The notes under the pieces were generated by a model. It saw only the letters and a program-made list of their open reading frames with translations, was not told the origin of the DNA and did not search any database. DNA of 51,188 nt from DHVE2 group archaeon (lineage in GTDB: Archaea > Thermoplasmatota > Thermoplasmata > Thermoplasmatales > Aciduliprofundaceae), in the NCBI GenBank assembly GCA_015523125.1, contig WAKX01000039.1, positions 1 through 51,188 on the forward strand, read 5' to 3'. A program made the translations under genes and the position numbers. Position 1 is the stretch's first letter. The number at the start of each line of letters is the position of its first letter. Of the stretch, positions 32,870 through 46,897 are shown piece after piece.

Positions 32870-33252
32870 TGATAATAATCGAAACAGAGGTAAATCCCAC
32901 CGAAGACGTGGAAAAAGTTAAAAATGCAATTCGTAATCTTTTTCCAGATGCAAATTGTGAATTCTCCGGAGACAAATTGAGATGTGAAACTGAGAGCATC
33001 GAAAATTTTGCCACGCTTTTGAAGGAACAGAGAATAAGGGACGCGGCCCGCGGGGTTTTGATTAAAAATCTTCATGGGAATAGAATCGTGTTCTTCGTGA
33101 GCAAGCAGGTGGCTACCGTGGGAAAAATAAGCTTCTCCGTGGGCGATGTACCCTTGGGGGATATAAAAATAGAGATTACGGGGGATTCTCTTCCGGAGCT
33201 GATTGATCATATTGCTCCCGATACTCGGGTTCAAAAACAGTCCCGCAATTGA
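32869..33252 (+). CDS. UPF0201 family protein (COG1325)
   Basis: The start at ATG 32869 overlaps the hxlB stop (TGATG) and gives an N-terminus matching the family (strand, then TEVNPTEDVEKVKNAI). ATG 32860 is a possible earlier start. RIRDAARGVLIKN and GKISFSVGDVPLGDIKIEI are also family-like. The protein of about 127 residues has been suggested to be RNA- or exosome-related, but that is not proven. Its last 77 bases overlap the end of the convergent CPBP gene, an unusually long tail-to-tail overlap. Confidence 0.85.
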   Translation: MIIIETEVNPTEDVEKVKNAIRNLFPDANCEFSGDKLRCETESIENFATLLKEQRIRDAARGVLIKNLHGNRIVFFVSKQVATVGKISFSVGDVPLGDIKIEITGDSLPELIDHIAPDTRVQKQSRN

Positions 33253-34291
33253 GGCATTTCAATTTTCCATTTTCCAGATATATGAAATTCTGCCCCCCGC
33301 AATTGGGGCATTTTATATTTATCCACGGCGGTGGTGGTATATATCTTTGAGTTATTTTCTTCTCTTTTTTCATCATTCCAAAATGCTGTAGAATGCGAAT
33401 GGAATAAGATACCGTGAAAACCAAGCCGGCCATGGCTATGATCAAAAACAGCAACCCGAAGGTGAGATAAACCTGAGAGTTCATGGCCATGGGTATGGTC
33501 ATGTAGTCGGTTGTAAAATGGAAAAGGATTGAGAGGTGCATTCCGTATTTGAGGTACAGATATCCCATGCCTAACCCTGCGATGAAAGCGGGCAGAAATT
33601 TCCACCAGCCCCATGCAGGAGTGTGCGCGAGTCCGAATATTGCGGAGGAGATGAATAGAAAAGTGAGTTCGGGCACGCCCATTTCATAGTGACCTCCGAA
33701 TACTCTGAGCGGCGATAGAAATTTCCCATCTCTACGATACATTGAAATTCCGCGCCAGATGAAAACAGGGACTCCGAGGAGAAGAAATCTCACAACGAAT
33801 TCCTCGTAAAACGCCGCGTGGAGAAGCTGTAGCATCTGGGCGTAAAGGGGCATTTTTTCTATTCCTATTCCGGGGGTTTGCACTCCGGCCACGCGCATAA
33901 TCATAGTTATTACGAGGGACAAGAATATAACCGCCGAGAAAACTTCAGATAGTTCTTTCACCGAGTTGGTTTTGTAAGAGAGTGGAGAGGTCATAAGGTT
34001 CTTTATATAATTTCTTAGCCCGAAAATAGTGAATATTCCCACGGAGATTGTGATGGTTATAGCGAGGAATATGTACCACACATAAGCGTAAATTCCGTAT
34101 GCAAAGCCCAGCAAAACGGGGAATGGAATTACTAAGAAAAATGGAATAACGAAGTATTTTTCATTTATGAAAGGAACGAGATAATAAAGGCTGTAAAACA
34201 TAACGGCGAAGCTGGTGAACAGTATGACGAGGATAATGAACGTGGTTATAAATGAAGTAATTTCTTTCAATGTGTGAAGCATGTTGCCCAT
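33176..34291 (-). CDS. CPBP-family intramembrane protease with C-terminal zinc ribbon
   Basis: The 371-residue protein has about eight membrane helices. The CPBP/Abi (CAAX protease-like) core is AFYEEFVVRFLL (Glu-Glu with Arg five residues later), FGLAHTPAWGWWKFLPAF (catalytic-type His) and LSILFHFTTDYM (second His). After a basic linker it ends in a zinc ribbon, CPNCGG then CLNCGT. This family includes prenyl-protein CAAX proteases and bacteriocin-immunity proteins. The ribbon suggests protein or nucleic-acid binding in the cytoplasm. A TATA-like AAATAAATT about 25 bases upstream suggests leaderless translation from ATG 34291. Confidence 0.82.
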   Translation of the reverse strand: MGNMLHTLKEITSFITTFIILVILFTSFAVMFYSLYYLVPFINEKYFVIPFFLVIPFPVLLGFAYGIYAYVWYIFLAITITISVGIFTIFGLRNYIKNLMTSPLSYKTNSVKELSEVFSAVIFLSLVITMIMRVAGVQTPGIGIEKMPLYAQMLQLLHAAFYEEFVVRFLLLGVPVFIWRGISMYRRDGKFLSPLRVFGGHYEMGVPELTFLFISSAIFGLAHTPAWGWWKFLPAFIAGLGMGYLYLKYGMHLSILFHFTTDYMTIPMAMNSQVYLTFGLLFLIIAMAGLVFTVSYSIRILQHFGMMKKEKKITQRYIPPPPWINIKCPNCGGQNFIYLENGKLKCLNCGTVFEPEYREQYDQSAPEENPP

Positions 34292-34380: not shown

Positions 34381-34493
34381 AGTCCCCTTTGCTGCCACGC
34401 TATATTACGAGCACCATACAATACTGGGCTGTCAGGATGTCTGCTCTCTTAACGCGGAGGTTAGAATTTATGTGATATCGGAAGGAGGTGAAT
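34381..34493 (+). pseudogene. C-terminal remnant of a family P gene
   Basis: The stretch encodes the last 35 or so residues of a family P protein and nothing before them: ATLYYEHHTILGCQDVCSL, then a degenerate AEVRIYVISEGGE. It is closest in DNA to the end of the P gene at 43646-44467 (GCCACGCTATATTACG is shared exactly). Two changes hit invariant positions (Trp to Cys in 'GWQDVH', His to Cys after it). The purine-rich GGAAGGAGGTG that ends these genes is intact. Upstream bases 34292-34380 show no recognisable coding sequence. Confidence 0.75.
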
Positions 34494-34501
34494 TAAAAAA
34501 A

Positions 34502-34560
34502 ATGAATGGGAAAAGAGTTTTTTAGGGGTATTGGGAGTGATTGCAAGGGCAGTTAGTTTT
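34502..34560 (+). pseudogene. Remnant of an L-type signal-peptide sequence
   Basis: Immediately after the P remnant, ATG 34502 opens a frame that encodes MNGKRVF and then stops. The following bases still match, with substitutions and a shifted frame, the DNA encoding the signal peptide of the L gene at 36407 (the AAAAGAGTTTT block followed by a TTGGGAGTGATTGCAAG-like block). It looks like the oldest and most decayed copy of the P-L pair. Confidence 0.6.
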
Positions 34561-34585
34561 TGTTTGTATTTGAACACAAGTAACC

Positions 34586-34594
34586 TTTTTATAC
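34586..34594 (+). promoter_or_regulatory. TATA-like box of the first intact P gene
   Basis: TTTTTATAC lies 33-41 bases before ATG 34627. The same element occurs at nearly the same distance before the second P gene (35551-35559), and a weaker ATATTTTTA before the third (42724-42732). Each gene also has GAGGG 5-9 bases before its ATG, so short-leader transcripts with a ribosome site are expected. Confidence 0.55.
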
Positions 34595-34626
34595 TTAATT
34601 TCTTTTCTCATATTTGAGGGTTTAAG

Positions 34627-35469
34627 ATGGACGAGATTGAAAAAATAAATGACAAAATAAAAGAATCGGGGGCAGAGCCGAAGAGAAAGCTGGGAAAGAA
34701 GAGGAAAATCACGGTAATTGGTGCTGTAGGGATAATTGCAATTCTTATAGGGGCCGTGCTGTATGTAACCTTAACAGCGCCTCCGCCGGAAAAGTACTGG
34801 AAGCCGGAGAGGGAGTTTACCATGCCAAATGTAGACTGGGGTGTGGTGAAAAACAGCTACACGGTAAAAAGAACAACGTATGATCAAGATGGTACCCAAG
34901 GACCCATAATAAATCAGACAATCGGCTCGGAGAAAAGCGATGGGAGTTTCAAAGTTATGCTAGTGGTTAGGATTAAGGATTATGGTTATCTTCCTGAAAA
35001 TCCTGATGAGATACACATAATGTTTTATATATCTTTTGTGAAGTTGAAGGGGGATTACATAACAAAAGAAATAATCCTTAAGTACAAACCAAGCGACAGC
35101 TATGTAAGAACGCCGAGTTTTGATGGCCATTACTTTGCCTCTAAAAATCTCTATTTCACTGCGGATACAGGCAATTATCCCACGCCGTACGGAACGGTGA
35201 GCGATAGGATGGATTATGAATTATGGACTCTGCACCAGATAAGGGGGATAAACAAAGATAAAAGAGACCTCAAAGAAGGAGGATTTTCCAACAGTTTTCA
35301 GATGGACCTTTTTGACGAATATCCGAATTGGACGGCTCACACAATCACATTCACAGCCACCCTTTACTACGGAAAGTATGTGCATGGGTGGTTCGGAGAT
35401 TCCTGGGAAGATGTGCACGAGTTGAGCGCATCCGTCGTGATATATGTTGTGCCGGAAGGAGGTGTGTGA
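34627..35469 (+). CDS. Family P surface protein, copy 1 (type II single-helix anchor)
   Basis: This 280-residue protein has a basic cytoplasmic tail containing DKIKESGAEPKRKLGK (residues 9-24), one membrane helix (about 29-50) and a 225-residue extracellular domain. Landmarks shared by all copies are a W-x-x-V/M segment, QTIGSEKSDGSFKV, KNLYFTAD, LHQIRGINKDKRDLKEGGF, LFDEYPNWTAHTITFTATLYYG and the terminal IYVVPEGG. It has no Cys in the outer domain and no enzyme motif. The gene ends GAAGGAGGTG, which also serves as the ribosome site for the truncated L ORF behind it. Family and function are not recognised. Confidence 0.8.
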   Translation: MDEIEKINDKIKESGAEPKRKLGKKRKITVIGAVGIIAILIGAVLYVTLTAPPPEKYWKPEREFTMPNVDWGVVKNSYTVKRTTYDQDGTQGPIINQTIGSEKSDGSFKVMLVVRIKDYGYLPENPDEIHIMFYISFVKLKGDYITKEIILKYKPSDSYVRTPSFDGHYFASKNLYFTADTGNYPTPYGTVSDRMDYELWTLHQIRGINKDKRDLKEGGFSNSFQMDLFDEYPNWTAHTITFTATLYYGKYVHGWFGDSWEDVHELSASVVIYVVPEGGV

Positions 35470-35471
35470 AA

Positions 35472-35594
35472 ATGGAAGGAAAAAGAGTTTTGGGAATGTT
35501 GGTAGTGATGGCAATGATAGTGACAGCGATGCCAGAACCTGAAAATAAGGTTTTTATACCTAATAACCATCCTCCCTACTACGGAGGGAGTTAA
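35472..35594 (+). pseudogene. Truncated L gene: intact signal peptide then a frame into the next promoter
   Basis: ATG 35472 follows GGAAGGAGGTG and opens 40 codons. The first 20 or so (MEGKRVLGMLVVMAMIVTAM) are almost identical in DNA to the signal-peptide region of the L gene at 36407. Identity ends abruptly after ACAGCGATGCCA, and the frame then reads through the promoter of the next P gene, including its TATA box at 35551-35559, to a stop just before that gene's ATG. This is the scar of a tandem duplication or deletion. The short peptide might still be made and exported, but there is no evidence for a role. Confidence 0.7.
35551..35559 (+). promoter_or_regulatory. TATA-like box and leader hairpin of P copy 2
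   Basis: TTTTTATAC at 35551-35559 is followed, before ATG 35595, by CCTCC-CTACTAC-GGAGG (35570-35586), a 5-bp hairpin whose right arm is the ribosome site GGAGGGAG. If formed it would mask that site; at high growth temperature a 5-bp stem may be weak. Confidence 0.45.
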
Positions 35595-36404
35595 ATGAAT
35601 GGGATAGAAGAAATAAAAGATAAAATAAAAGAATCCGGAGCAAAGCCAAAGAGGAAACTGGGAAAGAGGGGAAGAATCATAGTAATAAGCAGTATAACAG
35701 TAATTGCAATTTTGATTGGTGCTATTTTCTATGTTACTTTAACCTCTCCGCCTGAAAAGTACTGGAAACCTGATAAGGAGTTTATTATGCCCAGTGTGGA
35801 CTGGAGTAGTGTTAAAAACAATTATACGGTAAAAAGAACTCACTATAACGATATAAATGGAACAGTAATCAATCAGACGATCGGGTCGGAAAAAAGCGAT
35901 GGAAAATTCAGGGTTGAACTGGTGGTGAATATCCAAGATTATACATATAGACCTAAAAACTTTGATATAATTGGTACTATGTTCTACCTTTCTTTCACGA
36001 AGATGAGTGGGGATTACAGAGTAAAGGAACTTGTATTTCACTATGAATTTGGAGATGATAAGTTGAGCACAAATGGACTGGATTATTATTATGCTGCAAC
36101 CAAAAATCTGTATTTCACTGCAGATGAAGGAAATTACCACGGCTATGCATACCGCATAAACTATGAATGGTGGGTTCTGCAGGAGTTGAGGGGAATAAAC
36201 AAGGATGCGAATGATATAAAAGACGGTGGATTCTGCAACGATTTCCAGATTAATTTATTTGACTCTTATCCGCACTGGACAAATCACACGATTACGATGA
36301 GTGCAACACTCTATTACGGCCATCCCTCATTATTAGGATGGCAGGATGTCCATTCTTTGAGCACATCCGTCGTGATATATGTTGTGCCGGAAGGAGGTGA
36401 ATAA
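35595..36404 (+). CDS. Family P surface protein, copy 2
   Basis: At 269 residues this is a close paralogue of the preceding P protein: basic tail with DKIKESGAKPKRKLGK (residues 8-23), membrane helix (about 28-49), then the outer domain with VKRTHYND, NQTIGSEKSDGKFRVELVV, ATKNLYFTADEGNY, LRGINKDANDIKDGGF and the C-terminal YVVPEGGE. The end of the gene (from about 36362) is nearly identical to that of copy 1, indicating recent duplication or gene conversion. One outer Cys (GFCNDFQ) is not shared by copy 1. The codons for the final EGGE form the ribosome site GGAAGGAGGTG of the L gene, which starts two bases after the stop. Confidence 0.8.
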   Translation: MNGIEEIKDKIKESGAKPKRKLGKRGRIIVISSITVIAILIGAIFYVTLTSPPEKYWKPDKEFIMPSVDWSSVKNNYTVKRTHYNDINGTVINQTIGSEKSDGKFRVELVVNIQDYTYRPKNFDIIGTMFYLSFTKMSGDYRVKELVFHYEFGDDKLSTNGLDYYYAATKNLYFTADEGNYHGYAYRINYEWWVLQELRGINKDANDIKDGGFCNDFQINLFDSYPHWTNHTITMSATLYYGHPSLLGWQDVHSLSTSVVIYVVPEGGE

Positions 36405-36406
36405 AA

Positions 36407-38062
36407 GTGAGAGGAAAAAGAGTTTTGGGAATGTTGGTAGTAATGGCAATGGTTTTGACAGCGATGCCATTGCTGACAGGGAATGCAAAGGCGAGCAGTA
36501 ACACGGACCATGTGCCGAGCTATCTGGTTGTGGTTAGAAAGAGTTATGGTAGCGAGATAGGTGGATACACAATAGATAAGACCATAGGCAATGCGTACCA
36601 GGACGATAAGTTTGGAGTGGAAGTGATAGTGCATGTGCAGGACTACACTTATCGTCCGCACAACTCAGACATAGTATCTATAAACCTCACAGGGATTGGT
36701 GTGAAGGGAAGTGATGCGGGAGATTACAAGGTAGAGTGGTTAGAAATAGATAGCACGAAGTTTTCATTTGAGGAAAGGAACTCGGATGTAACACCCTACG
36801 CAACAGACTATGTCTCATCTATTGAACCGGTTGGAGTACCAGATGTTCTGGTGGGACTTAAAGGCTCTGTTCAGCATCCTGAGATTAAATGGTTTGCTAA
36901 CATCTCCGACGAGGTTGCGTCCACAGCAACATCCCTTGCTATTGATGCAGCTACAGGCGGTGCGGCGGGGCCTCTTAGTGGACTGGCAGGCAATGGCGCT
37001 GGATATATAGTGAATCAAGCTATAACACATATGTTCAATATCAACAACGCAGGTAAAAACTACGCTGGATCTGATAAAGACCCATGGCAATCAACAGCTA
37101 ATGAATATACATATGCCGCATTACGAGGAGTTAATGATGGAAATAGCAATCCAGATAAAACACTTATTGGAAGATCACTTCAGTGGAACCTTTTTGACGG
37201 AATTAATGATCGTATTCATGCGTTAACATTAAAAGCCACACTTTGCTATGCTAAATATGGCCCCCATGGGTCTTATATTGAGGATCCAATATCCCACGTA
37301 CGTATTCCAATAATAGCGCGAGGTTGGTACGATGAGCACAAGATAAGCACAAGCGTAACAATCTCGGTGGTTCCTACAAATATGGCACATGAAGTTCAGA
37401 CAAGAGGTGGAAGTACCTTTGATATGAAAAGGGAACTAAGCGACCCCGCAAATTATAATAGTTATTTTTTGAAGATAACAGGGGATGACACACCAACCAG
37501 ATATGGATATTCAATGCCTTTAGAAGCAAAACCCACTACTCCAAGGACAGATAGCGGAGATACAGGAAGAACAATATTTCTTTATTCTGGGCACTATGGA
37601 CTCGCAGGCAGTGCGGATACTTACTATTACTATAAAGGGGCCCTTCCAGCGGGAGATAGTTACGATGTGTATAAAGTCGACTTTACCTATAATACGGAAT
37701 ACTTAGAAAATTATGGTGATATATGGATATATTCGACCGGAAGCATACACATAAACATTCGTTTTGCAGGGCAAATACAATATTACACTCTCAAAGGGGG
37801 GCAATCTATCCTTATCAGTAATCTTATGCATTCAACAGCACATGCATATATAACTATCAGCAAAGTCGGAAGTGGAGAGCCTACATATATAATATCTCCC
37901 TATACTGTGTACTTAGAATATAATGATAACAATGGCGGCGGCTCCGGCGGAGGAGGATCCGGTGGCGGAGGGATCCCCGGCCCAGGACACGGCATTCACA
38001 TTACATCGGCACCACCGACACCGCAGTATGTGGGGGATGTGACGGCCCCGAATTCTCCATAA
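36407..38062 (+). CDS. Secreted 551-residue protein L with a family P domain
   Basis: GTG 36407 opens a protein with a clear signal peptide (about 1-29, cleavage near NAKAS). Residues 38-325 follow the outer domain of family P (KTIGNAYQDDKFGVEVIV, ALRGVNDG, QWNLFDGINDRIHALTLKATLCYAKYG, WYDEHKISTSVTISVVP) but contain an insertion of about 95 residues with an Ala/Gly-rich hydrophobic stretch (about 170-208) able to span or insert into a membrane. Residues 330-508 form a Tyr-rich beta domain with a PPC-like layout. A Gly/Ser linker (about 509-525) and a short Pro-rich tail end it. No membrane anchor or sorting signal is seen. It is co-transcribed with P copy 2. Function unknown. Confidence 0.75.
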   Translation: MRGKRVLGMLVVMAMVLTAMPLLTGNAKASSNTDHVPSYLVVVRKSYGSEIGGYTIDKTIGNAYQDDKFGVEVIVHVQDYTYRPHNSDIVSINLTGIGVKGSDAGDYKVEWLEIDSTKFSFEERNSDVTPYATDYVSSIEPVGVPDVLVGLKGSVQHPEIKWFANISDEVASTATSLAIDAATGGAAGPLSGLAGNGAGYIVNQAITHMFNINNAGKNYAGSDKDPWQSTANEYTYAALRGVNDGNSNPDKTLIGRSLQWNLFDGINDRIHALTLKATLCYAKYGPHGSYIEDPISHVRIPIIARGWYDEHKISTSVTISVVPTNMAHEVQTRGGSTFDMKRELSDPANYNSYFLKITGDDTPTRYGYSMPLEAKPTTPRTDSGDTGRTIFLYSGHYGLAGSADTYYYYKGALPAGDSYDVYKVDFTYNTEYLENYGDIWIYSTGSIHINIRFAGQIQYYTLKGGQSILISNLMHSTAHAYITISKVGSGEPTYIISPYTVYLEYNDNNGGGSGGGGSGGGGIPGPGHGIHITSAPPTPQYVGDVTAPNSP

Positions 38063-38081
38063 TTTTTTATTTTTATATTTT
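38063..38081 (+). terminator. T-rich terminator candidate after the P-L cluster
   Basis: Directly after the L stop codon the plus strand runs ATTTTTTATTTTTATATTTT, an archaeal-style oligo-T termination signal with no hairpin needed. The rest of the gap to 38239 (about 160 bases) shows only another pyrimidine-rich stretch and the promoter of the MFS gene. Confidence 0.55.
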
Positions 38082-38239
38082 GCGAACATCTCCAACTGGT
38101 TTATATTGTTTTAAATTAACGCTTATGCTCTTAATAATGTACCCTCTTTTTTTTATCTCTATTTTCCCCGTTTTTCAAGGAATTCAATCTGCTAAAATGC
38201 GACTGGTAAATAATTAATACTACCAACCTATGCAGCGCC

Positions 38240-39433
38240 GTGAATAGAAAGCTGCTCTACATATCCACCGGATTTCTGTTCGCCAACATGAGCTGGGGCA
38301 TGGCTTGGCCATATTTGCCCAATTACATGCGGTTACTGGGTGGTAGTGTTCTTTTCATCGCATTTCTGTCCGTTTTTTTCAACATCACTTCCGCTTTTGG
38401 ACAGGCGTTCTGGGGAAGAAAATCCGATGCGGTGGGTAGGAGAAAGCCCTTCATTCTTTTAGGTTTGTTTTCCTCAGCGCTATTCTTTTCGCTCATGGGA
38501 TTGGTGCAGAACGCAATCGCCCTTTTGTCTTTTAGAACTCTGCAGGGATTCTTTGTTTCTTCGCAAACTCCGGCAATAAGTGCGCTGGTTTCCGAGTTAT
38601 CCACCAATATTGGACGCGGGTTCGGGATATTCAATTTGTTCTCAAATATCGGATTCATGTTAGGCAATTTTCTAGGGGGAGTTGTGGTTCACTATTTCCC
38701 AATCAATTATGTGTTTATTTTTTCCGTGATTCCCGTGGCCATATCATTCGTCATGTTTTCTCTGTTCAAGGAAGAGTCCCGCAATCCAATGGATTTCCGC
38801 CTTCTCTTTCGCTACGACCGCCCTGGGAGAACTGTGGTGTCGTGGAAAAACGCGAGGGAATTCATGAGAAAAAACAGAAATATACTGATTTTCTCCTTGG
38901 CCACATTTGTTTTGATGATTTCCTCGGGCATGGTTTACTCGTACCTCTCCCTTCTTTTAGATGCGCGGTTCGGTGAAGGGTACGTGGGTTTTTATTACGG
39001 AATCGACGGCCTTTTTTCTTCGTTTTTCATCTATCCCTTCGGGTACCTCTCAGATAAAATCGGGAGCAAAACGGTCATCGTGATCGGCTCAATTCTTTAC
39101 GTGGTAACCTTCGGGATGTACTTCATGGCAACAACCATTCCTTTTTTGATAATAACCGCCCTGATATCCGGAACCAAATGGGCTGCATACTTCAATTCCA
39201 TAAACACCTACGTTTCAAGGATGAGCACCCGGGAAGAGAGGGCAACCGCCCTCGGGCTAATGAACAGCGGGATTGCAATGGGCTGGGTTTTAGGGCCCTT
39301 AATCGGCGCTTACACAATCGTGCTCTTCGGTCTCGCTGAAATGATGCTCATCGCAACCATTCCCGTGATATTAAGCCTTATCATCCTTGTTCCATTCACA
39401 AAGAACGACAGGGAGAAAAAATATAACGCATGA
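38240..39433 (+). CDS. Major facilitator superfamily transporter
   Basis: GTG 38240 lies about 25-30 bases after a TATA-like AAATAATTAATAC and opens a 397-residue, 12-helix MFS carrier. The loop between helices 2 and 3 carries the MFS signature as WGRKSDAVGRRKPFI, and the repeat in the second half reads GYLSDKIGSKTVI. These motifs point to a drug-efflux or sugar-type MFS but do not give the substrate. It is unrelated in detail to the MFS gene at 5808. Location between the two P clusters may be chance. Confidence 0.85.
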   Translation: MNRKLLYISTGFLFANMSWGMAWPYLPNYMRLLGGSVLFIAFLSVFFNITSAFGQAFWGRKSDAVGRRKPFILLGLFSSALFFSLMGLVQNAIALLSFRTLQGFFVSSQTPAISALVSELSTNIGRGFGIFNLFSNIGFMLGNFLGGVVVHYFPINYVFIFSVIPVAISFVMFSLFKEESRNPMDFRLLFRYDRPGRTVVSWKNAREFMRKNRNILIFSLATFVLMISSGMVYSYLSLLLDARFGEGYVGFYYGIDGLFSSFFIYPFGYLSDKIGSKTVIVIGSILYVVTFGMYFMATTIPFLIITALISGTKWAAYFNSINTYVSRMSTREERATALGLMNSGIAMGWVLGPLIGAYTIVLFGLAEMMLIATIPVILSLIILVPFTKNDREKKYNA

Positions 39434-39449
39434 GGGGATATGGTTCATT

Positions 39450-39728
39450 ATGAAATTCACCATGGCCTCAAAGTGCATTTACAATCGCGGAGGAATGTGC
39501 TATTTTCTCGTCTCGGACCCTAAGCCATGCACCATGTGCGTCAATTTCTGCTCATCGGACCCAGCACTGAAGAGGGAGCTTAAAATAAATAAACCCGTGG
39601 TTACATTTTACGATCTCCTAATGAAGGATTCTCGATACAGGGCAATGTTCCCCAAGAGCGGCAGCGAGATGCAGATGAGCTTAAATTCTGGGGCCTACGA
39701 ACTGCCACACGATGAGAACGAGGATTAG
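39450..39728 (+). CDS. Small Cys-rich protein, unknown
   Basis: From ATG 39450 the protein has 92 residues (ATG 39462 is an alternative). Its first 40 residues hold six Cys in the order C-x7-C-x9-C-x2-C-x3-C with one earlier, in KCIYNRGGMCYF and KPCTMCVNFCSSD, a pattern that could bind zinc or an iron-sulfur cluster. The rest is hydrophilic. The last 48 bases overlap the end of the convergent site-2 protease gene. No family recognised. Confidence 0.5.
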   Translation: MKFTMASKCIYNRGGMCYFLVSDPKPCTMCVNFCSSDPALKRELKINKPVVTFYDLLMKDSRYRAMFPKSGSEMQMSLNSGAYELPHDENED

Positions 39729-41216
39729 TATGCTCATGAACGTTGTGATATTCGACGCCAATTCCTCCGGTTTTTTCGCTTTCATTTTTTTTGCAATTCC
39801 CGTGAGCAAATCTTTGAACAAGTAGCCACCGTCCAAGGGCACCGCGGGCAATAAATTGGTGAGTCCAAGCATGAGATTGAGCCAGAAAATCCAGTAAAAC
39901 GAGTTAACCAGAATCCAGAATCCTGCGAATGGTACGGAGAATATATTCTCGTACTCCGCCGGGAACGGCATTAGACCCATGAAAGGAAGGGCAATCAGGT
40001 ACATGCTTCCCTGAAAGAATCCCTCAAAGCCGGATTTTCCCTCGTACGGATTCGCCAACGTCTGCTTTAATAGATTCGGATCGCCCACGTTCATTCCCAT
40101 GAAGGACGCGCCCACGCCTAAAAATCCCTTGCCTTTGAAGTAGTCCCTGTTTATCTGGGGCTGGTATTTCTCGTAGTACTCGTATTTGTCCGCGAGGGTT
40201 ACGTTCAAATACACCTTCTGAAGCGTGGTGTTGAGCATCACTACCGGTATTCTTTCCCCCGCTCTTGTCTCGTTCAACGCACTCAGGAAATCGGCGTAAT
40301 TTCTTATTATTGTGCCGTTTATTGAGTAGAATATCCAGCCGGGCCGGATTCCCGCATCGTACGCAGGATACCCTTTCATCACCGAGAGCACGAAAATTCC
40401 GCTTATTAGCTCTACTTGTTTCAAACTCCCCCGATAATATTTCACTATGGTGTTCTCTCCGGGAAGCGGAGCGTTGATTTTCTCGAAATCTTCTACGCTT
40501 TTTATCTCCGTTCCATTTATTTCCGCGATTATATCGCCAATCTTTATTTTCTCTCCGTTCACTCCTCCGACGCCCGCAACGTAAACTCCAGGGTGCGCGG
40601 GGGAAGCGGCCCCTATGGTCACCGAGAAAAGTATGAGAAATATCACCGCCAGAACTATGTTGGTGGTTGGCCCCGCAGCGAACACGTGCATCCTCTTTAT
40701 GCGCTCCGCCTCCATGAGTTGATCCTCGTCGGGCTCAACAAAGGCGCCTATTGGTACGATGAACAGCAGAATTCCGAGGGAAATGATTTTCATTCTGTGA
40801 AACGCTGTTAGCAATCCGTGCGAGAGTTCGTGGAAAACAATCGCGACCGCAAGTCCCAATATTCCGTACCATATCGGAATTATGGGATTAATTCCCGGGA
40901 TCCCAAGCGCTTCCACGGGCGAGGGGGCCTTGCTTGCGGGTATGGTGGTGACCATGTACGCCTGCCAGAGCAGCATGGCGAAAACTAAAATCATCACAAG
41001 GAAAGAAAGGGCAATTCCCATGTACCCATATGCTTCCCAAATTCTGTGTCTCCCCACCTTCTCAATGTATTTTTTCCCCCGTGCAGTCTTGAGCATAATT
41101 GCCGGGCCGAACAGGGCGATGTTCCCCTCCTTCTTCACGTATCCCTTTTTGTAGAGGAAATACACCAATATGAGCCAAATTACCGTTAAGATGAGCGCGA
41201 TTAACCAGCCGTCCAT
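39681..41216 (-). CDS. Site-2 protease (M50) with two PDZ domains
   Basis: The 511-residue membrane metalloprotease has the zinc motif HELSH at about residues 129-133 within a membrane helix and the second ligand in NLLPAVPLDGG near the C-terminus. Between them are two PDZ-like domains (about 210-270 with KIGDIIAEINGTEI, and about 280-330 with GIRPGWIFYSINGTII), more than the single PDZ of many archaeal homologues. Such enzymes cut type II membrane proteins inside the bilayer. Family P proteins, encoded on both sides, have that topology, but a link is speculative. Confidence 0.9.
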   Translation of the reverse strand: MDGWLIALILTVIWLILVYFLYKKGYVKKEGNIALFGPAIMLKTARGKKYIEKVGRHRIWEAYGYMGIALSFLVMILVFAMLLWQAYMVTTIPASKAPSPVEALGIPGINPIIPIWYGILGLAVAIVFHELSHGLLTAFHRMKIISLGILLFIVPIGAFVEPDEDQLMEAERIKRMHVFAAGPTTNIVLAVIFLILFSVTIGAASPAHPGVYVAGVGGVNGEKIKIGDIIAEINGTEIKSVEDFEKINAPLPGENTIVKYYRGSLKQVELISGIFVLSVMKGYPAYDAGIRPGWIFYSINGTIIRNYADFLSALNETRAGERIPVVMLNTTLQKVYLNVTLADKYEYYEKYQPQINRDYFKGKGFLGVGASFMGMNVGDPNLLKQTLANPYEGKSGFEGFFQGSMYLIALPFMGLMPFPAEYENIFSVPFAGFWILVNSFYWIFWLNLMLGLTNLLPAVPLDGGYLFKDLLTGIAKKMKAKKPEELASNITTFMSILILVLIVWQFVGPRI

Positions 41217-41265
41217 GGGCGAAGGATAGCATAAACATTAAAAATGGTTTCCACAATCACCTATC

Positions 41266-41775
41266 ATGATCGAGGAACTCATACCGGAAATAAATGAAAT
41301 CCGCGACGAGGAGCTGAGAGAGAAAGTAAAAAAGGTCTGGGAGTACGCAATAGAGAAGGGCGGGTGGAAAGACTACCCGCTGGATAAGATACCCTTCACT
41401 CTTCTTATACCCACGGAGCGCGACCTGATCACGCACACCCGTATGGTGACTCGCATGGCCATGGCCGTCGGTAAAGAGCGGGGGGACGTGAACATGGATT
41501 ACCTGATTGCTGGCGCCATTTTGCACGACGTGGGCAAGCTTCTGGAATTTAGACTCGAGAATGGGAAAGTTGTGAAGAGCGAGTATGGCAAGAGAATCAG
41601 GCATCCGGTGAGCGGGGCAATGTTAGCGGAGAAATTCGATTTACCATGGGAAATCTCGCACATAATCGCATCGCACTCCAAAGAGGGCGAGTTCATAAAG
41701 CGCACGCCAGAAGCGGTAATTGTGAATCACTGCGACTTCACTGACTTCCACATCGAGAAGGGAAAGTTAGAGTGA
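41266..41775 (+). CDS. HD-domain phosphohydrolase
   Basis: The 169-residue protein has the HD signature: THTRMVTRMA (first His), AGAILHDVGKLLEF (His-Asp), RHPVSGAMLAE and a late Asp in VNHCDFTDFH. HD proteins of this size are often metal-dependent nucleotide or cyclic-nucleotide phosphohydrolases. The substrate is not evident. It converges on the hydrolase gene with a nine-base overlap. Confidence 0.85.
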   Translation: MIEELIPEINEIRDEELREKVKKVWEYAIEKGGWKDYPLDKIPFTLLIPTERDLITHTRMVTRMAMAVGKERGDVNMDYLIAGAILHDVGKLLEFRLENGKVVKSEYGKRIRHPVSGAMLAEKFDLPWEISHIIASHSKEGEFIKRTPEAVIVNHCDFTDFHIEKGKLE

Positions 41776-42645
41776 ATAGATGAACTCCGCAATCCTTTCG
41801 AACACCTCTTCTTCTTTTCCGTGGAAGCTGTGATCTCCGCGCGGTACTTTCACTATTTCCGTTTTGCCGAATTTTCTAGCGTTTTTTATTTTCTCCTCGT
41901 ACCACTCGAACTCATGATAAAGGGTATCGTCGTAGGTGCCGAAGAAGAACAGCATAGGCGATTTCACCTTTCCCAAAATGGGGAGAGAAGAATCGTAATT
42001 GAACATTCTCGCCTCATTTCTCTCACGGTCTGCAAAGCTGAGGAATCTCGAGGCGGACCATATCGCTCCCGTTCTCCGATAAATGAAATAATGTAGTGTG
42101 TTCCCGTATCCGCGGTCCTCCATGTTCTGCGCAATCTCCACTGCTTTTTCCAATTCATCGCCCAAATATTCTTCCCAAATGGGATAATCGTCCGAGGGAG
42201 AGAGAAAAATGAGGCTTTTCACCCTCTTATCTTTTCTTTTCCATGCGTAGTAGAGAATCTTTTGGCAGCCAGTGCTGTGCCCAATTAGGTGGAATTTTTG
42301 ATAACCTAGGGATTCCAGATAATTTATCGCCCCTTTGATATCCCGCGCGGAATCTTCGAATTTTTCGAAGGCGGTGCCGAATGTGTAATACTTATCCCCG
42401 CGGGTGTTTTTGAACGACTTCACAATTTCCGCGCCGCGGTTGTTGAAGGCAAAGAAAGAAATACCTCGTTCTAATAATTTTCCCGCGCCGAACAGAAAAC
42501 CGTCCTTGGCGAAGCTGCCGCCCATTCCATGCACAAAAATCGCGATTTCATCGCCCCCAGATTCCATAAGAAATCCAGAGGTTTTAATGTTGTCTGTGGT
42601 TGTGAAAAATACGAGCTTTCCTTTAAATTCCAGGGGGTATCTCAC
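41767..42645 (-). CDS. Alpha/beta-hydrolase
   Basis: Starting at GTG 42645, this 292-residue protein has the alpha/beta-hydrolase plan: an oxyanion strand AIFVHGMGGSFAK, the nucleophile elbow LIGHSTGCQKI (GHSTG), an Asp candidate in FFGTYDDTLY and the catalytic His in PRGDHSFHG. It resembles DUF1749-type esterases or lipases. There is no signal peptide, so it is cytoplasmic. Substrate unknown. Confidence 0.82.
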   Translation of the reverse strand: MRYPLEFKGKLVFFTTTDNIKTSGFLMESGGDEIAIFVHGMGGSFAKDGFLFGAGKLLERGISFFAFNNRGAEIVKSFKNTRGDKYYTFGTAFEKFEDSARDIKGAINYLESLGYQKFHLIGHSTGCQKILYYAWKRKDKRVKSLIFLSPSDDYPIWEEYLGDELEKAVEIAQNMEDRGYGNTLHYFIYRRTGAIWSASRFLSFADRERNEARMFNYDSSLPILGKVKSPMLFFFGTYDDTLYHEFEWYEEKIKNARKFGKTEIVKVPRGDHSFHGKEEEVFERIAEFIYSL

Positions 42646-42767
42646 GCCTGCACCACCGGGCAGTCATTGTTTTATGGGTATTAAAATTTTCCAAACATTC
42701 TTTTTTTATCTCCTTTCAGGGCAATATTTTTACCCGCGAACATCTTCTCCACCGCAGAGGGTTCGAG

Positions 42768-43598
42768 ATGACAGAGATTGAGGAAATAAATGATAAAATA
42801 AAAGAATCGGGAGCAAAGCCAAAGAGGAAACTGGGAAAAGGGGGAAAAATTGCGATAATCGGTGTGGTTATTGTGATAGGTATCTTTATAGGTGCTTATT
42901 TGGCAGTAACACTTACTGTATCGCAGGAGAAGTTCTGGAAGCCACAGAATGAGTTTACAATGCCGACCGAGGACTGGAACAAGGTGAGGGAGAATTATCT
43001 TTTGGAGAGGGGGAATAGTGATGTAGATCCTCTTAATAAAACGATTGGAAATTTCATAAAAAATGATAAATTTGTTGTATATTTAAAAGAGGATTTAAAG
43101 AGGTATGATGCACATAATGATGGAACAGGAGAACTCTGGATACAGCCCTACTTGTATGCAGGGCGGATAGGGGACACATCCTACAGAATAAAAGAGTTGG
43201 TATTTCACTTCAGTTATGGAGATGACAGAAATGTAAGTTATTTGAGTATGGACTGGAGGAAGTTAGGTGCAAAGAATCTCTATTTTGATGTCACGTCGGG
43301 GAAATACAGCGGGCCATATGGCACATACGACAACAAGCTGGATTCGGACTGGATGAATTATTACAGGATTGTGGGAGTAAATAAAGATGGGGAGGACATA
43401 AAAGATTGCGGTTTCACATTTCCCATGCAACTTCTCTTCTTTGATGAATATCCGAACTGGACGAATCATACAATCACATTCACGGCCACCCTTTATTACG
43501 GAAAGTATGTGAACGGGTGGTTTGGTTCTGGATGGCAGGATGTGCATGAATTGAGCAGCTCCGTAGAAATATATGTTGTGCCGGAGGGAAGTGGATAA
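42768..43598 (+). CDS. Family P surface protein, copy 3
   Basis: This 276-residue family member keeps the basic tail (NDKIKESGAKPKRKLGKGGK), a membrane helix at about 27-48, and the outer domain ending in ATLYYGKYVNGWFGSGW, QDVHELSSSVEIYVVPEGSG. The 'IGSEKSDG' landmark has drifted to IGNFIKND, and the central part is the most divergent. The last codons are GGAAGT rather than GGAGGT, so the embedded ribosome site seen in copies 1 and 2 is weakened, and here no L-like gene follows. TATA-like ATATTTTTA at 42724-42732 and GAGGG before the ATG match the other copies. Confidence 0.8.
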   Translation: MTEIEEINDKIKESGAKPKRKLGKGGKIAIIGVVIVIGIFIGAYLAVTLTVSQEKFWKPQNEFTMPTEDWNKVRENYLLERGNSDVDPLNKTIGNFIKNDKFVVYLKEDLKRYDAHNDGTGELWIQPYLYAGRIGDTSYRIKELVFHFSYGDDRNVSYLSMDWRKLGAKNLYFDVTSGKYSGPYGTYDNKLDSDWMNYYRIVGVNKDGEDIKDCGFTFPMQLLFFDEYPNWTNHTITFTATLYYGKYVNGWFGSGWQDVHELSSSVEIYVVPEGSG

Positions 43599-43645
43599 TA
43601 TGGACATGCGTGCAAAAATGGAAAACTAATGAGGTGGGAGAAAAC

Positions 43646-44467
43646 ATGGGTGATAAAAATCCTCAAAAGAAATTGGAAGAGGAAAACGATGAAACCATAA
43701 AAAGATTGAAATATGAAAGAAAAAGGAGGATAATGAAAAGAGTTGCGATTGCTATGGTTGCAATTGTGATAGTGGGAATACTAATAGCCGCATATTCTTT
43801 CTATGAGGCATCTCAGGACACATATTTTCGGCCAGAAGGAACGCTGAACAAGCCGGATGTGAACTGGGGCCAGATGAATGACAGCTTAATTGTGAAAAGA
43901 GTGACTTACGAAAATATAAGCGGTTACTCGATAAATAAAACTATCGGGTCAGAAAAAAGCGACAGTAATTTCAAGGTTGAGTTGAGAGAGTATGTTGCAA
44001 ATTATGAATATGTTCCTGGGGGAGGACCGGAGCGGATTGATGAAATTGCCAGCAGTCCGCTTCTCTACGTGGAGAAAATAGGCAATAATAATTATGAGGT
44101 GAAGGAACTGATATTCAAATACAAGTTCAATGATTATGAAATAGAGGCTTTGACAGGGGATTATATAAATGCAAAGAATCTCTACTTTTTGTCGACTGAA
44201 GGCAATTTTGATGGATACTCGGATAAAATAGAGTACGAATGGAGGGAACTTCATCAGCTTAGAGGAGTAAATAAGGATGCGAAGGACATAAAAGAATGTG
44301 GCTTCACATTTGAAATGGATTTTCTGATGTTTGACGATGTGCCATTTATGAATCACACAATTACCCTTACCGCCACGCTATATTACGGGCATCATACAAT
44401 ATTTGGCTGGCAAGACGTACACTCTCTTAGCGCGGATGTTAAAATTTACGTTGTGCCAGAGGGATGA
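43646..44467 (+). CDS. Family P surface protein, copy 4
   Basis: ATG 43646 has GAGGTG upstream; the 273-residue product has a longer, Lys/Arg/Glu-rich cytoplasmic tail (about 32 residues, KYERKRRIMKR before the helix) that differs from the KIKESGAKPKRKLGK tail of copies 1-3. The outer domain is fully family-like: NKTIGSEKSDSNFKVEL, NAKNLYFLSTEGNF, LHQLRGVNKDAKDIKECGF, MNHTITLTATLYYGHHTI, GWQDVHSLSADVKIYVVPEG. It has one Cys, shared with copy 3. It probably shares the transcript of copy 3, 47 bases away. The 34381 remnant is closest to this copy. Confidence 0.8.
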   Translation: MGDKNPQKKLEEENDETIKRLKYERKRRIMKRVAIAMVAIVIVGILIAAYSFYEASQDTYFRPEGTLNKPDVNWGQMNDSLIVKRVTYENISGYSINKTIGSEKSDSNFKVELREYVANYEYVPGGGPERIDEIASSPLLYVEKIGNNNYEVKELIFKYKFNDYEIEALTGDYINAKNLYFLSTEGNFDGYSDKIEYEWRELHQLRGVNKDAKDIKECGFTFEMDFLMFDDVPFMNHTITLTATLYYGHHTIFGWQDVHSLSADVKIYVVPEG

Positions 44468-45320: not shown

Positions 45321-46733
45321 TTAGAGTTTTCTCCTCACGGCAATCATGGCTCCAGCCAGCAGAACGAAAACCAGGACGATCCCCGGGGAGATCTCGGGCA
45401 CCGCTGTGGATGTTGTGAGCGGCAGTTCGTCTTCGCTATTTGCGCTTCCGTCGATTGAGTATGGGTTATCCACTATCCCGTTATTGTTGTTGTCCGGAGT
45501 TGTCCAGTCGTACCAGTAATTGCCTTCGTATGAGATGTTCCATGCGTTCCCTGTGCCGTAATCCGCCGCTTGCACCGCCCCTGAAGAATAGGTGTCCGTG
45601 GAGCCGTGGTTGAAATAGAAGGAGTTCTCGTACACTCGGTTGTAATTTGATGAGGAGTAAATGGTTATTCCGTACCCAGAGTTGTTGTAGAACATGTTGT
45701 TGTGTATGTCGTTGTAACTGGATTTATCCAAGTAAAGACCCTGCCCCCCGTTGAAAGATAAGTTGTTCCACATAATCACGTTGTGGTCCGAGGGGGTAGA
45801 GGTGGAATAGGCATATATGTAAATTCCCGACTTCAAATTATCGTGCATGTGGTTTTTCTCCAAGGTGTTGTAAGAGGAACCAGTGTCTAAGTATATCCCG
45901 TAGTTGGTGTTGTTGTAACCCTCATTCTCCCTAGCGCTCATGTTCTGGGTGTATATGGTGTGGATTCCGTAGGTGTTGTTAAATAATGTATTCTTGTATA
46001 GGAGTGTGTTGTTAAGATATCCATCGGAGGGGCCGCTAATGTATATTCCGTTTTCTGAGTTGAATGAGAGAGTATTGAACTTTATCTGGGTATTGTTGCT
46101 GTTTCCCCACAGGGAAATTCCCCAGTCGTTATTCTCACAAGTATTCCCTTCTAAGAGATTATCCTGCGCGGTGTAGACCAATATTCCCGATTTTCCGTTG
46201 TGGGTGCATGTATTGTAAGTGATATTGTTGTTATTGGAGTACACTACCCAAATTCCTTGGTTACTGTTATTTTCCACTGAGTTTCCGTTCACTATGTTTT
46301 CCGATCCGCCCCGTATGTATATTCCGTTGGAGTTGTTTTTTGCCACTACATTCTCCACCTTTCCGTTAATCACGTTGTACAAGAGCACACCTGCCCCAAC
46401 ATTGTATGGTATCGATGAGTAAGACGCATTGTAAAGTAGCAAATTTCTAATTATAAAGTACTTGGTTGTGTTTCCTATGTAAATGGCATAACCGCCGCCG
46501 TTTGCATCGATTTCGTAATTCTCTATAATGTATGGGTCATTTACCGTACCGGAACCACTACTCGCCATGCTTTGCAGCTCCGAGTCGCTGTTTATTTTTA
46601 TTACCGCATGGCTAACGTACGCTCTTAAATTTTCGCCGTTCTCTTTCACCGGCGCTCCGCTCGCAGATATGGGAATTGCCGTGAGCAAAAGCACGACTAT
46701 CGCTCCAACCAGCACATACTCCAGTTTTTTCAT
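45321..46733 (-). CDS. NosD-like secreted right-handed beta-helix protein with C-terminal anchor
   Basis: ATG 46733 (GGA ribosome site eight bases upstream) opens a 470-residue protein with a signal peptide (KKLEYVLVGAIVVLLLTAIP). About 14 beta-helix turns rich in Asn, Tyr and Gly follow (repeats of 'N...G(I/V)Y(I/L)...S.N..I..N'), as in NosD/PbH1 copper-binding or polysaccharide-acting proteins. It ends in EISPGIVLVFVLLAGAMIAVRRKL, a PGF-CTERM-like tripartite anchor (Pro/Gly, helix, basic tail). It should be displayed on the cell surface. No catalytic residues can be assigned. Confidence 0.85.
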   Translation of the reverse strand: MKKLEYVLVGAIVVLLLTAIPISASGAPVKENGENLRAYVSHAVIKINSDSELQSMASSGSGTVNDPYIIENYEIDANGGGYAIYIGNTTKYFIIRNLLLYNASYSSIPYNVGAGVLLYNVINGKVENVVAKNNSNGIYIRGGSENIVNGNSVENNSNQGIWVVYSNNNNITYNTCTHNGKSGILVYTAQDNLLEGNTCENNDWGISLWGNSNNTQIKFNTLSFNSENGIYISGPSDGYLNNTLLYKNTLFNNTYGIHTIYTQNMSARENEGYNNTNYGIYLDTGSSYNTLEKNHMHDNLKSGIYIYAYSTSTPSDHNVIMWNNLSFNGGQGLYLDKSSYNDIHNNMFYNNSGYGITIYSSSNYNRVYENSFYFNHGSTDTYSSGAVQAADYGTGNAWNISYEGNYWYDWTTPDNNNNGIVDNPYSIDGSANSEDELPLTTSTAVPEISPGIVLVFVLLAGAMIAVRRKL

Positions 46734-46897
46734 TTTTATTCCTCCACAATCTCTATTCAAAAGCTCCTATTTAAATTTTTTGTATAATTACATATATTTT
46801 GTGAAGTATCAAAAATTTATATTTGAAAAATATTTATTTCTCATAATTTGAAATTTTTGGGGTTAAATTTATATCCCATAATGTCTGATGATTAACT

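Follow-up and report, generated by a model that had tools for sequence, protein, structure and literature searches.

A secreted protein and its membrane-anchored domain twins in a DHVE2 group archaeon, a candidate antagonist and immunity pair

Few weapon-antidote systems are known in Archaea, and almost none in Thermoplasmatota. Archaeocins (halocins and sulfolobicins) are secreted proteinaceous antagonists of archaea. Polymorphic toxin systems join a modular secreted protein, built from variable and shared modules, to an adjacent cognate partner whose genes can persist alone. The VARTIG loci of Thermococcales are led by a large multi-immunoglobulin (multi-Ig) protein with a hypervariable C-terminal Ig domain, and the authors who described them reported no closely similar module in other archaea (PMC8416519). 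EsxX is a glycine-zipper membrane toxin whose surface-acting immunity proteins are kept as orphans by non-producers (PMC12744356). Here, we describe a gene array at positions 34381 to 44467 of contig WAKX01000039.1 from a DHVE2 group archaeon (the stretch analysed, 51,188 nucleotides, is called the window, and its genome G000). The array encodes four intact type II membrane proteins (P1 to P4) and a secreted relative (L), together with remnants that include an older P gene (P0). We find that a P and the L beside it are matched at a single small hairpin, a result more secure than any function assigned to them, and that comparative evidence leans toward a cognate antagonist and immunity system.

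In organization, P/L resembles both polymorphic toxin systems and VARTIG. We claim membership in neither, because searches revealed no toxin domain and the loci lack the VARTIG lead protein. With polymorphic toxins it shares an adjacent partner gene, a putative effector with a variable and a shared module, and orphan partners that are retained (P1, G002, G007far, G009c3, and G009c6). However, the variable, partner-matched domain of L is N-terminal and the shared module C-terminal, the partner is homologous to the effector domain, and no nuclease or other known toxin domain was found in P or L with Pfam, NCBIfam, PHROGs, or PADLOC. Like VARTIG, P-L loci are archaeal and lineage-specific, combine secreted or surface proteins of putative beta-sandwich or Ig type with membrane proteins, and are locally hypervariable. 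By description they are set apart because they start with P, have no large multi-Ig lead protein (arCOG07710), and carry the variable segment in the N-terminal domain. If L acts as an antagonist, it would resemble archaeocins, compared here by general description, in being secreted and proteinaceous, but it is a multidomain protein of 550 to 900 residues. EsxX and its immunity proteins ExiCD likewise comprise a secreted protein with a Gly/Ala-rich segment (membrane-active in EsxX), membrane proteins directed against its extracellular form, and orphan immunity genes in non-producers (PMC12744356). P and L differ in having neither an LXG domain nor type VII secretion; moreover, P crosses the membrane once and is a homolog of L, in contrast to the polytopic ExiCD, which share no homology with their toxin.

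One domain in anchored and secreted form

Profile comparison connects the first domain of L with the outer domain of P (probability 99.4%, E = 5e-22), as do single-protein searches. The preliminary description, made from the sequence of the window alone, had proposed such a sharing of one domain, and also four intact P genes and a remnant; the four reading frames are indeed open and the remnant matches the P profile. All four proteins have a basic N-terminal tail, one strong hydrophobic helix (KD19 2.6 to 2.8), and a C-terminal IYVVPEG, with P1 46 to 62% identical to the other three. An AlphaFold2 model of P2 is a beta-sandwich with a mean predicted local distance difference test score (pLDDT) of 83.6, rising above 90 across the strand blocks of the matched hairpin. 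All L of the same type as in the window (type A) carry, at one position of the domain, an Ala/Gly-rich and mostly uncharged helical insert, often with the turn GPLSGL or GPLAPF, which is absent from P. The stretch GGAAGPLSGLAGNGAG, a candidate Gly/Ala-rich helical membrane segment of the glycine-zipper kind, sits within a 27-residue uncharged run, with a KD19 of only 0.95.

The ending IYVVPEGG, noted earlier as a protein motif, is present as such, but it is not only that, because its DNA holds GGAGGTG, a good putative ribosome-binding site for L, which starts at a GTG. Across P-L loci, L starts a few bases from the P stop or overlaps it by four. Once L is lost, the P tail may drift, to judge from the endings EGSG in P3 and EGS in G002.

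P is present in 13 of 61 relatives searched and in seven of 300 genomes sampled across the class, each of which belongs to the same family as the window; its matches include a DHVE2-group archaeon and Aciduliprofundum sp. JdFR-45. L was found in 7 of the 61 relatives by single-protein search, and two more L lie next to P in genera g3 and g5. P-L neighborhoods recur in several genera of Aciduliprofundaceae/DHVE2-type archaea, a group from deep-sea vents, so that their absence from related genomes, which would have refuted the preliminary description, is not what we see. A type-A L stands directly behind a P at all eight loci with an intact or near-intact L (window, G003, G007, G008 twice, G021, G017, and G009 contig 2), although two of these L run off the contig and one P survives only as 60 residues at the edge of its contig. 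Wherever the DNA upstream of an intact L is visible, a P precedes it, and no intact L without a P was seen. Presence/absence varies even between the close genomes G000 and G003.

As the preliminary description had it, P and L belong to no known family: Pfam, NCBIfam, PHROGs, PADLOC, and PDB sequences gave no credible match for either. The PDB sequence hits were antibody or linker sequences (E > 0.01) matched to the Gly-rich L tail region of a mixed profile, and were rejected. Nor did these searches give a sequence match to a known adhesin family, such as pilin-type or LPXTG-like anchored adhesins. Fold search with the P2 model, a beta-sandwich to be set beside the Ig fold of VARTIG, returned only low template modelling (TM) scores (PDB matches at or below about 0.36 by query length). 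Many of the matches were to the haemolysin fold, a beta-barrel pore-forming toxin, which we discarded as a candidate given TM-scores of about 0.3, root-mean-square deviations of 8 to 20 Å, and a mixture with adhesins and arrestins. A viral structure search found nothing. A viral origin was rejected, as four IMG/VR queries found no relatives.

Cognate matching of adjacent P and L

Matching was assessed on one alignment of all P and L; the G003 pair, almost identical to that of the window, was kept out of the permutations. The matched segment was first spotted by eye; a sliding scan and an alignment-free repeat are the fairer tests. Adjacent pairs outscored all 719 other re-pairings in P1 residues 114 to 136 (1/720), with no significant effect in the C-terminal half (residues 205 to 276; 108/720). 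The sliding window placed the effect at P1 residues of about 110 to 143, and in the alignment-free repeat the N part reached 1/720 but the C part only 50/720. In a lineage control using non-adjacent P of the same genome, the adjacent P won in the segment in all five genomes offering one. For five of seven L, the cognate P ranked first of 19 in the segment; it ranked second for the G003 L, behind the near-identical P2, and third for the G008a L.

Codon usage bears on how this likeness arose. Only 9 of 25 shared residues in the matched segment of the window pair use the same codon; because codons are mostly unshared, the match there is not recent copying. Codons are largely unshared in four of five pairs, with DNA identity of 0.44 to 0.49 in the segment versus 0.41 to 0.49 elsewhere, not a meaningful excess, and recent copying therefore does not account for these matches. 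The G021 pair is 68% identical in segment DNA versus 43% in the C part, and an identical codon encodes 20 of its 32 shared residues; here recent copying may explain the match.

A second, distinct family, type B, has the same plan. The membrane protein P' precedes L', and P' can be aligned over its full length with the first domain of L', which in addition contains an insert (P-value 3e-5). Two of three L' score best with their own partner, and on G009 contig 3 a short loop-strand (GGGxxDVFLN) is once more what matches. In type C the genes are ordered alike, but the homology of P'' and L'' (P-value 0.007) is too weak and was not counted as support.

The N-domains of types A, B, and C occur with the same C-terminal module of about 330 to 390 residues (CPFLYTYSGN...), common to the L of other loci. 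A genome can have as many as six copies, fragments included; most L of genus g1 are without it. The module was not found in plasmids, and it matches weakly in large but otherwise unrelated Thermoplasmatota surface proteins, which bear PKD-like and other repeats. By eye, we saw it downstream of a Hint/intein-like stretch (CLVPGTKISTPNGEV...) in one such large protein, from a different family of Thermoplasmata (locus L119). The window's genome also has a second L-like gene (locus L087, contig 40, 6836 to 9378), broken into three frames. Its C-terminal module is intact, no P-like gene lies just upstream, and its first domain resembles neither type A nor type B.

Loss of L and the function of the pair

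Read from its sequence, the region is a broken array of P-L units. The earlier notion of an expanding family is half right, in that the array grew by such units, but L genes were subsequently lost; a second L remnant, behind P1, had been overlooked. An intact P stands with a dead L at five loci (P1, G007far, G009c3, G002, and G009c6), and the reverse was not seen. Interior and C-terminal fragments of L remain in G002 and the L start in the other four, L having been destroyed mostly just after the signal peptide. Both genes are broken at P0 and on G007 contig 40. Between P1 and the G002 P, both L-less, the ratio of nonsynonymous to synonymous substitution (dN/dS) is 0.14, indicating purifying selection, and P is thus of use even when the L of its locus is gone. 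For P3 compared with G007far, dN/dS is 0.86 at residues 75 to 145 and 0.17 after 145, a pattern consistent with relaxed or diversifying change around the matched hairpin, although a single pair is no proof.

We lean toward a cognate antagonist and immunity system because of the asymmetric loss of L, the selection on L-less P, the hairpin covariation, and the insert found only in L. That L is a secreted, probably membrane-active antagonist, and P a membrane-anchored domain twin that recognizes L and gives immunity, has in our judgment about even prospects. The comparative evidence goes beyond the preliminary description, for which nothing in the sequence decided between receptor/ligand, toxin/immunity, and surface assembly, and stops short of proof. 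We also count in favor the constant position of type-A L behind P, the localization of the cognate match, the type B parallel, the precedent of EsxX and its orphan immunity proteins (PMC12744356), and genes for CAAX-protease/bacteriocin-processing (CPBP) proteins (PF02517) within 3 kb of P at three independent loci (G000/G003, one syntenic locus, G011, and G013; expected 0.12). CPBP proteins include bacteriocin self-immunity proteins.

In the proposed two-gene module, P would be made first and seated in the membrane with its beta-sandwich outside. L would be translated from the same message, via the ribosome-binding site inside the P tail, and then exported. Its first domain would duplicate the outer domain of P and differ by the Ala/Gly-rich helical hairpin set into it. 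Partners from the same locus would recognize each other through the matched strand-loop-strand hairpin, and L would antagonize close relatives by acting at the membrane through its insert. The insert-less P would capture L, or enter an L assembly as a dead subunit, and so protect the producer; P genes with a decayed L would be retained as immunity against neighbors. A wider proposal, which we regard as tentative and rather doubtful, is lineage-wide archaeal antagonism whose antidote reuses the domain of the weapon itself: an anchored twin without the membrane-inserting hairpin would block its cognate secreted twin by homotypic hairpin pairing, a plan that would have arisen in at least two unrelated-looking P/L families. 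If the antagonist and immunity reading is right, the pair would be a compact self/non-self system whose specificity is set by one small hairpin, testable by pairing and mismatching natural proteins. It would also give a search rule for further cases without a known toxin domain, namely a domain with an insert plus an insert-less membrane twin.

Several points weigh against antagonism and immunity. Toxic activity is known for no P/L member. The KD19 of the L inserts (0.8 to 1.7) is moderate and below that of a typical membrane helix, and the structure model of L is poor (pLDDT 44), too poor for fold search. The asymmetric decay amounts to five cases only, in a gene two to three times longer than P and hence easier to break. 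The link with CPBP, a post hoc observation, has low weight, the window's CPBP gene being widely conserved in the group with counterparts away from P. Furthermore, the hairpin likeness could come from a shared third partner instead of contact.

The alternative that survives best, although we consider it unlikely, is surface assembly, in which P uses the matched hairpin to dock L on the surface of the producer itself, as part of an adhesin or coat and with no antagonism. Cognate matching is also compatible with docking, surface proteins commonly have a beta-sandwich on a type II anchor, and L of other genera share their C-terminal module with ordinary large surface proteins. However, P stays under purifying selection after L is lost and several P accumulate per L, and docking leaves unexplained both the hydrophobic insert confined to L and the diversification of the hairpin among paralogs of one genome. 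Kin recognition or signaling, with L as a diffusible or displayed ligand and P as the cognate receptor distinguishing self from non-self, would suit the variable matched hairpin, the difference between G000 and G003, the type II receptors, and the orphan P as extra receptors; we nevertheless hold it improbable, as P reaches inside only with a short basic tail, about 30 residues at most, in which no signaling domain is recognizable, and no regulator is linked. Least probable is a likeness without functional matching, left by local gene conversion between neighboring homologous genes, since this would suit G021 and the repeated DNA of the P-L junction but not the other four pairs, nor an effect limited to the same hairpin at independent loci and recurring in type B.

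Features of the array and its neighbors

Table 1. Features of the P-L array and adjoining genes in the window.
Feature	Position	Strand	Basis or remark
CPBP/CAAX-type intramembrane protease, C-terminal zinc-ribbon-like tail	33176-34291	-	GC 0.43; adjoins P-L array
P0, 3' end remnant of older P gene	34385-34489	+	P-profile match E 7e-7, last 35 model positions
L start remnant, directly after P0	34502-34525	+	MNGKRVF then stop; compare intact L start MRGKRVLGM
P1, membrane-anchored type II protein, L decayed	34627-35469	+	Open, intact; TATA-like TTTTTATACTT just upstream
P1 residues 110-143, cognate-matching hairpin segment	34954-35055	+	Sliding-window re-pairing test
L1 remnant, signal peptide only (MEGKRVLGMLVVMAMIVTAMP)	35472-35543	+	75% identity to L residues 1-24
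P2, adjacent partner of L	35595-36404	+	Open, intact; TATA-like GTTTTTATACC at 35550
P2 residues 107-140, cognate-matching hairpin, strand-loop-strand 105-117 / 124-136	35913-36014	+	Re-pairing test, AlphaFold2 model
GGAGGTG, putative Shine-Dalgarno of L, encoded by P2 tail PEGG(E)	36393-36399	+	Sequence; pattern across loci
L, secreted: signal peptide, P-like domain with helical insert, second beta-rich region, Gly-rich tail	36407-38062	+	Open, intact; GTG start
L signal peptide (MRGKRVLGMLVVMAMVLTAMPLLTGNAKA)	36407-36493	+	Sequence; conserved in relatives
L residues 71-106, segment matching P2 (VEVIVHVQDYTYRPHNSDI...)	36617-36724	+	Alignment and re-pairing tests
L residues 166-210, L-specific Ala/Gly-rich helical insert	36902-37036	+	Absent from every P
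P3, orphan P, no L alongside	42768-43598	+	Open, intact
P4, orphan P, most divergent of the four	43646-44467	+	Open, intact; inside open reading frame listed from GTG 43610
Short tubulin/FtsZ-like protein, right after P4	44530-45309	+	Sub-threshold Pfam match, 24.3 bits versus cut-off 33
Secreted NosD-like right-handed beta-helix protein, C-terminal membrane anchor-like end	45321-46760	-	Pfam search

Within the P/L genes (34627 to 38062 and 42768 to 44467), the P genes are AT-richer, with a GC content of 0.38 to 0.43 versus 0.43 to 0.49 for most neighbors. Archaea do not use sigma-70 promoters, and scans for bacterial-type promoters and terminators gave promoters at chance level. Beside the G017 P-L pair (locus L063, 8107 to 10731), we noted by eye, and not by search, relaxase-like and conjugative-ATPase-like genes, which suggests an integrated mobile element at that locus.

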